From the IMG/VR virus record IMGVR_UViG_3300030388_000748, positions 1 to 45,642 of that record: a stretch of DNA of 45,642 bases; one strand, written 5' to 3'. Below the pieces are notes generated by a model, which did no database searches, was not told where the DNA came from, and worked only from the letters and a program-made list of their open reading frames with translations. Both the position numbers and the translations under genes were made by a program. The DNA comes from a virus. This document shows, piece after piece, positions 37,489-39,129 of the stretch. Position 1 is the stretch's first letter; each line of letters starts with the position of its first letter.

Positions 37489-39129
37489 ATGGCAAAACAA
37501 ATAAAATTTAATATAGAAGCTAGAGATGGCTTAAAACGTGGAGTAGATGCATTAGCTGATGCAGTTAAGGTAACTTTAGGACCTAAAGGGAGAAATGTTA
37601 TTATATCTAAAAGCTTTGGTTCACCACAAGTAACTAAAGATGGTGTTACAGTAGCTAAAGAAATAGAACTGGATGATCCTTTAGAGGATATGGGAGCTCA
37701 GATGGTTAAAGAAGTTGCTAGCAAAACTAATGATTTAGCAGGTGATGGAACTACTACAGCTACGGTTTTGGCTCAAGCTATAGTAACTGAAGGACTTAAG
37801 AACGTAGCTGCCGGGGCAAATCCAATGGACTTAAAGCGTGGTATAGATAAAGCAGTTAGTCTTGTTGTAGAAGAATTAGAAAATGTATCTACAATAGTAG
37901 GTGCGTCTTCTGATATGATAGAACAAGTTGCAACTATATCTGCTAATAGTGATAAAGCTATTGGTTCTTTAATTGCTAAAGCATTTATTAAAGTTGGTAA
38001 TCAAGGTGTTATAACTGTTGAAGAAGCTAAAGGTACAGATACTTATGTTGATGTAGTTGAGGGAATGCAGTTTGATAGAGGATATCTTTCTCCATACTTT
38101 GTAACTAACCCGGATAAGATGTCTGCTGAATTAGAAAACCCTTATATCTTAATGATAGATAAAAAGGTATCTAACTTACAAGAAATCTTACCAGTATTAG
38201 AACCAGTATCTCAAACTAATAGACCACTGTTAATCATTGCTGATGATGTTGATGGAGAAGCTTTATCTACTTTAGTAGTTAATAAATTAAAAGGTTCTTT
38301 AAAAATTGCTGCAGTTAAGTCTCCGGGATTTGGTGCAAGAAGAAAAGATATGCTTGAAGATTTAGCTATACTTACAGGAGGAGTTATTATATCAGAAGAG
38401 AAAGGTTTATCATTAGATACTGTATCATTAGATATGTTAGGATCTGCAGAAAACGTTATAATTGATAAAGATAACACTACCATAATAAATGGATCAGGTA
38501 ATAGTAATCTTATTGCTGATAGAGTAAGCCAATTAGAGGGTTTAATCAGCTCAAGTACTAGTAATGAAGATAAAATGATATATAGAGGCCGTCTAGCTAA
38601 AATAGCTGGTGGGGTAGCAGTATTATATGTTGGTGCAGCTTCAGAAATAGAAATGAGAGAAAAGAAAGATAGAGTTGATGATGCACTTGCTGCAACCAGA
38701 GCTGCTGTAGAAGAAGGTGTTGTACCTGGAGGTGGTGTTGCTTTACTTAGAGCAAGTTTGATCTTAAATTCTTTAGAGTATGAATCTCCTATTGATGATG
38801 AAGTGACTGGTGTTGATATTGTGTCAAGAGCTATAAAAGCTCCATTCAGAACTATATGTGAGAATGCGGGTGTTAGTGCTGATGTAAAACTTGAAGGTGT
38901 TATGTCAAAACATACAGGAATAGGTTATGATGCTAAGAATGATGAGTATGTTGATATGTTTGAAGCAGGTATAATTGATCCAAAGAAAGTAACAAGAATT
39001 GCATTAGAAAATGCAGGATCTGTTGCGGGTATGATACTTACTACAGAATGTGCATTAATTGGTGAGAAAACTGATATGTTTGCTCCACCAATGGGAGGAG
39101 GTATGCCGGGCATGCCAGGAATGATGTAA
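37489..39129 (+). CDS. groEL: Full-length GroEL chaperonin (546 aa)
   Basis: A complete chaperonin subunit. It has the ATP-binding segments [14 protein letters not shown] (D51, aligning with catalytic D52 of E. coli), [11 protein letters not shown] (D86) and the second catalytic Asp in [12 protein letters not shown] (D397/D398). The apical domain is intact, and the C-terminus keeps the flexible Gly/Met tail ([11 protein letters not shown]). The closest look is to Bacteroidetes GroEL. One unusual position is Ser40 in NVIISKSFG, where bacterial GroEL usually has an acidic residue. No frameshift or deletion is seen. A co-chaperonin is encoded on the other strand at 6955-7233. Phage chaperonins with the full fold are rare. 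Confidence 0.95.

Follow-up and report, generated by a model that had tools for sequence, protein, structure and literature searches.

The gp31 protein of phage T4 is described as replacing GroES on the host GroEL (PMC6318259). Many phages have been reported to encode only GroES, some both GroES and GroEL, and few only GroEL (PMC7185714, citing Marine et al. 2017). Both genes are reported in Maribacter phage Panino (PMC11590407), GroEL in marine Flavobacteriaceae phages (PMC5332604) and GroEL/GroES in Southern Ocean viruses (PMC8407431), and cpn10 is listed among the core proteins of Pervagoviridae (PMC8776804). Flavobacterium phages immuto and elemo, Cellulophaga phage Calle_1 and Bacteroides phage SJC03 carry both genes as well, and the giant phages EL, OBP and AR9 encode GroEL homologues. 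Among the open-licence papers searched, none was found to describe a core GroES linked to terL together with an optional GroEL.

We analysed the virus record IMGVR_UViG_3300030388_000748 over its entire length of 45,642 bases, which is referred to as the window. The window is very likely an incomplete piece of a larger phage genome, since the related records with closing terminal repeats have lengths of about 114 kb. It carries the following features.

1994..4753, minus strand: portal protein (phrog_6547, E 4.2e-93)
4770..6962, minus strand: terminase large subunit, terL (phrog_6681, E 4.3e-58)
6955..7233, minus strand: GroES (Cpn10), 92 aa (PF00166, phrog_3188)
7141..7167, minus strand: GroES mobile-loop stretch KTASGIIIP, matching Flavobacteriaceae GroES
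35175..37166, plus strand: DNA polymerase (PolB), upstream of GroEL (phrog_1252, E 2.9e-130)
37171..37476, plus strand: MazG-like pyrophosphatase (PF03819, phrog_715)
37489..39129, plus strand: GroEL (Cpn60), 546 aa, above the TIGR02348 cut-off and placed in clade A (defined below) within Flavobacteriaceae GroEL
38845..38898, plus strand: GroEL segment matching E. coli 451-468 (ring-ring contacts), with S461 and D463 and 7 of the 16 separating sites described below
39186..40067, plus strand: DUF932 protein, downstream of GroEL (PF06067)

The initial annotation had placed the two chaperonin genes about 30 kb apart on opposite strands and in separate gene blocks, and this was borne out, the measured distance being 30,255 bases. 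On the minus strand the order is GroES, terL and portal, and GroES shares 8 bases with the start of terL. On the plus strand GroEL starts 12 bases after the end of the MazG-like gene, with the DNA polymerase further upstream. These neighbouring genes suggest that GroEL would be expressed early and GroES late. No RNA families or tRNA were found in the window, and no close DNA relative of its bases 1-25000 was found among named phages. The best-ranked named matches to terL, the sole Crassvirales marker compared, were crAss-like at about 25% identity.

Other parts of the window also contain genes of interest. At 28306-30748 a VWA/DUF2201 metallopeptidase-like protein lies beside an ATPase (phrog_1297); the pair recurs in relatives and possibly represents a second remodelling machine. 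The plus-strand block is opened by two tandem, similar small proteins of 111 and 110 aa (13268-13603 and 13801-14133). A minus-strand protein of 1029 aa with bacterial Ig and cadherin-like domains (40867-43956) is likely to be located on the virion surface.

Both chaperonin genes were found to be intact, as had been claimed from their motifs. GroEL scored 776.5 bits against the NCBIfam equivalog TIGR02348 (cut-off 582.1) and matched phrog_5725 in PHROGs with an E value of 1.5e-173. In the alignment it is identical to E. coli GroEL at positions 30-34, 51, 52, 87-91 (DGTTT), 150, 398, 415, 493 and 495 as well as at the apical positions 199, 201, 203, 204, 234, 237, 259, 263 and 264, and differs at the apical positions 227, 230, 231, 241, 242, 260, 267 and 268; we take these aligned positions to be the ATP-site, catalytic and apical residues. 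The Gly/Met tail is also present. By its substitution rates GroEL is under purifying selection (for the five phage pairs calculated, dN was 0.16-0.22 and dS 0.63-1.12). GroES scored 55.4 bits against PF00166 (cut-off 21.1) and matched phrog_3188, whereas it remained below the cut-offs of all 14 NCBIfam GroES models listed (57.1 versus 109 for the top-ranked one). Its predicted structure is of modest confidence (pLDDT 74.4, pTM 0.60). The best fold matches of this model were GroES chains (8wuc_a, Z 8.6, rmsd 3.0, 80 residues aligned), whereas unrelated folds reached a lower Z of 4.6, which suggests that the 92-aa protein has the GroES fold. Judged by these features, the phage GroEL and GroES could in principle work together.

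The locus differs from each of the described systems. The initial annotation had stated that known phages usually have only a GroES or a single-ring GroEL; this was not supported, because immuto, elemo, Calle_1 and SJC03 carry both genes, as the window does. In immuto, elemo and SJC03, however, GroES and GroEL are neighbours and in Calle_1 one gene lies between them, whereas they are 30 kb apart in the window. The GroEL proteins of SJC03, immuto, Calle_1 and elemo are 58%, 51%, 44% and 39% identical to that of the window, respectively, and fall outside clade A in a quick GroEL tree. Unlike in these four phages, GroES is fixed before terL in the window. The giant-phage chaperonins are far diverged from the window GroEL (AR9, 25% identity over 70% of the query; OBP, 34% over 19%), and the latter is, by sequence, a near-host GroEL and no close kin of the EL/OBP/AR9 group. 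T4 gp31 is a parallel in one respect, namely that most relatives of the window carry a phage lid without a GroEL. According to its description, with which the comparison was made, gp31 is larger, has a longer mobile loop and has no roof loops (PMC6318259), whereas the window loop is host-like and GroEL has been added in some family members. Finally, GroES and GroEL form an operon in Flavobacteriaceae chromosomes (L125), whereas the phage genes are split. The window GroEL shares 74-75% identity with its best chromosomal matches in Flavobacteriaceae, whereas identity between the window GroES and 12 Flavobacteriaceae GroES is only 31-40%. The difference in GroES lies outside the mobile loop: of 51 Flavobacteriaceae GroES, 21 contain exactly KTASGIIIP and 34 contain TASGIIIP.

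GroES was found directly before terL in all 80 terL relatives inspected, which were those with the highest scores among at least 599 in IMG/VR. Selection by score biases this set towards the branch to which the window belongs; the relatives that bear GroEL lie further away (terL identity 73-83%). Two additional scans, run with terL queries further from the window, added 146 loci, many of them on contigs already in the set, and among the 137 distant loci with room upstream, GroES directly preceded terL in 136. In the lone exception, L441, no adjacent GroES was recognised upstream of terL. GroES was also located beside terL in the window and in the eight other GroEL-bearing records with terL. 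These nine records represent six distinct lineages, since GroES is identical in G004 and G005 and likewise in G010, G012 and G034. A PF00166 search of 14 long records detected GroES in ten. Among the four in which it was not detected, G301 and G302 end before the GroES place, and the position of PolB suggests that G303 and G304 do so as well. In the tree, 19 terL-linked GroES formed a single clade (support 100/100) on a long branch. The best reading of these data is that GroES is a core co-chaperonin of the phage family. Two virus records, G246 and G262 (the records of L393 and L421), carry GroEL together with two separate GroES-like genes each.

The distribution of GroEL is quite different from that of GroES. 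The window GroEL matched 268 phage records, some of which look like host contamination. Among 80 PolB loci (the best of 151), GroEL was present in five, DUF932 followed PolB without GroEL in 67, and neither was detected in the remaining eight, mostly with little downstream sequence. A Cpn60 search detected no match in 11 long records of PolB relatives (85-117 kb), while both positive controls were recovered. Likewise, GroEL was absent from 33 whole records of terL relatives, six of which include PolB, and from 28 further records of distant terL relatives. The other 47 of the best 80 terL contigs contained no GroEL either; these are short and mostly end before its usual place. The absence is firm only for G295, a record of 114,219 bases closed by a 72-base terminal repeat, which has GroES beside terL, no GroEL, and a PolB 83% identical to that of the window. 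It is likely for the other records near 110 kb, and most records are fragments. Where GroEL is present (L008 and L009 both carry it as well), it occupies at least five different sites.

after MazG: the window
directly after PolB: L004 and L010; also L007 and L359, with MazG behind GroEL
after DUF932: L005 and L362
before PolB: L387 (10001-11620)
far upstream, after a helicase gene: L011

The layout with GroES and GroEL on opposite strands recurs at a distance of about 30 kb in G004, G005 and G227, 35 kb in G226 and about 11 kb in G010. The distribution among relatives thus makes GroES the constant and GroEL the optional member of the pair in this phage family.

The origin of GroEL was analysed with a set of Flavobacteriaceae sequences consisting of 30 top-scoring loci, to which 20 low-scoring ones were added. 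The family was defined as that of the L125 genome, titled 'uncultured Flavobacteriaceae bacterium', in which 144 of 149 genomes have a chromosomal GroEL match. The window GroEL grouped with nine further phage copies in a clade (clade A, support 100/100) that was nested in the Flavobacteriaceae GroEL with supports of 96/90 in the 23-row set and 99/94 in the 20-row set. A second clade (clade B, L011 and L387, 100/99) was placed outside the sampled Flavobacteriaceae. By its position in the tree the window GroEL is copied from Flavobacteriaceae bacteria, and GroEL appears to have been captured at least twice, once for each clade. Flavobacteriaceae are probably also the hosts of the window phage. 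The initial annotation had considered that the two genes might branch with unrelated lineages and be unable to form a complex. Their histories are indeed separate, GroES being deep and terL-linked and GroEL a capture from Flavobacteriaceae, whereas an inability to form a complex is not indicated. By GroES and terL the window is nearest to relatives without a detected GroEL, the closest of which are short contigs, whereas the window PolB groups weakly with the GroEL bearers. GroEL may thus have reached the window together with the polymerase segment. Use of the PolB tree as a clock for gain and loss of GroEL was abandoned because its deep forks are unsupported.

We favour the reading, with a probability of roughly 0.6, that the family GroES caps a GroEL, usually that of the host, and that the minority to which the window belongs adds a captured GroEL that is loaded before the virion proteins. 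The phage GroES, encoded with terminase and portal, would cap a GroEL for the folding of virion proteins, and in most family members this would be the host GroEL, as with T4 gp31. In the minority, a Flavobacteriaceae GroEL would have been captured and placed in the polymerase block, so that the cell is filled with phage-made GroEL ahead of the virion proteins. The phage GroES would then cap the phage GroEL and probably still the host GroEL, and the added GroEL would supply more, or private, folding capacity. We infer the timing, the partnership, the substrates and the host of the window pair in this account. The host-type mobile loop and the host-like apical residues of GroEL suggest that the phage GroES may cap both host and phage GroEL. 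Since the closed G295 has GroES without GroEL, it is likely that GroES works with the host GroEL in the manner of gp31; this pairing is not certain, because the window GroES differs much from host GroES. The phage GroEL could also serve replication proteins only.

A rival reading, for which we see about one chance in five, is that the captured GroEL was rewired at the ring interface (E461S, S463D and five nearby sites) and forms rings that do not mix with those of the host, or that act singly, while the old GroES can cap both phage and host GroEL. When 12 clade A sequences are compared with 51 Flavobacteriaceae GroEL, the two groups have no residue in common at 16 sites (up to residue 525), and seven of these fall in the segment corresponding to E. 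coli 451-468, which makes ring-ring contacts. A scan gave p 6e-5 for this clustering, with the 18-residue width picked after the sites had been seen and a uniform null that treats all sites alike. In control comparisons, two Flavobacteriaceae subclades had two such sites each, of which none and one, respectively, were located in 451-468, and clade B had one of its 23 separating sites there. All 51 Flavobacteriaceae GroEL have E461 and S463, whereas all 17 clade A records seen have S461 together with D463. E461 is described as forming an inter-ring salt bridge with R452, and E461 and S463 as being among the four residues changed in a single-ring variant (PMC5575113). However, R452 is retained in the window GroEL, and the combination of S461 and D463 is not restricted to clade A: it is present in 6 of 69 other bacterial GroEL and in five virus records from outside that clade (L014, L407, L412, L428 and L429). 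The six bacterial sequences are L177, L181, L183, L184, L191 and L198, five of which have Patescibacteria-type titles; in them the pair represents an alternative ring-contact chemistry in nature. Because of these bacterial and viral occurrences, the idea that E461S and S463D alone produce single rings was dropped. Since the pair occurs outside clade A too, insulation from host rings is put forward as a hypothesis and not as a result. If it is true, an infected cell would contain two separate folding machines that share a single lid of phage origin, and the phage would have a naturally orthogonal chaperonin.

The initial annotation had proposed a switch in which the phage GroEL would first fold early proteins together with host GroES and would later be re-targeted by the phage GroES to capsid or terminase. 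GroEL belongs to the polymerase block and GroES to the terminase block of the opposite strand; this layout, which recurs in other GroEL-bearing records, is consistent with such a switch, and the conserved apical residues of GroEL suggest that host GroES could bind. However, GroES is kept in relatives that lack GroEL, so that its role is independent of a phage GroEL, and the Bacteroidetes-type promoter pattern occurs in the window at chance level (3 found versus 3.45 expected). We consider the switch unlikely, in equal measure to the insulated rings.

An idea of mobile-loop release was also pursued. The KTxxG loop motif is lost in three of the six GroEL-bearing GroES lineages (G009, G227 and the G010/G012/G034 type) and in none of 33 GroES from records without a found GroEL. 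Among distant relatives, 56 of 92 distinct GroES are without KTxxG, a pattern that does not recognise close variants like KTDSG, and 26 of the 28 distant records in which no GroEL was found have motif-less loops. The idea was rejected because of these many distant motif-less GroES without GroEL; the loop change tracks phage phylogeny and not the presence of GroEL.

Somewhat less probable than the switch is the reading that GroEL is a passenger that boosts general host folding with host GroES, the phage GroES not being its partner. The separate histories and places of the two genes, and the rarity and mobility of GroEL among relatives, would fit such a role, whereas the presence of GroES in every GroEL-bearing record that contains terL argues against it, although GroES is present in nearly all other relatives too.

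Despite the host-like identity of GroEL, a chimeric contig with a bacterial groEL mis-assembled onto phage DNA, as the initial annotation had feared, is excluded for practical purposes, because PolB and DUF932 flank GroEL in other records too and because G005, 114,099 bases long and closed by a 161-base exact direct terminal repeat, carries both GroEL and GroES; in addition, clade A stands apart as its own clade in the GroEL tree, and GC and GC3 of GroEL are close to the values of the window genes.

Thus, while phages with both GroES and GroEL were already known, the asymmetry between a fixed GroES and a captured GroEL is new. Closely related phages with closed genomes of similar size (about 114 kb) differ by the presence of GroEL, and by the tree this gene was acquired on at least two occasions, which amounts to a natural experiment on the benefit that a folding barrel of its own brings to a phage. 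The finding bears on why some phages bring a whole GroEL and others only the lid, and the ring-contact changes offer a concrete hypothesis on how phage and host chaperonins may be kept apart.
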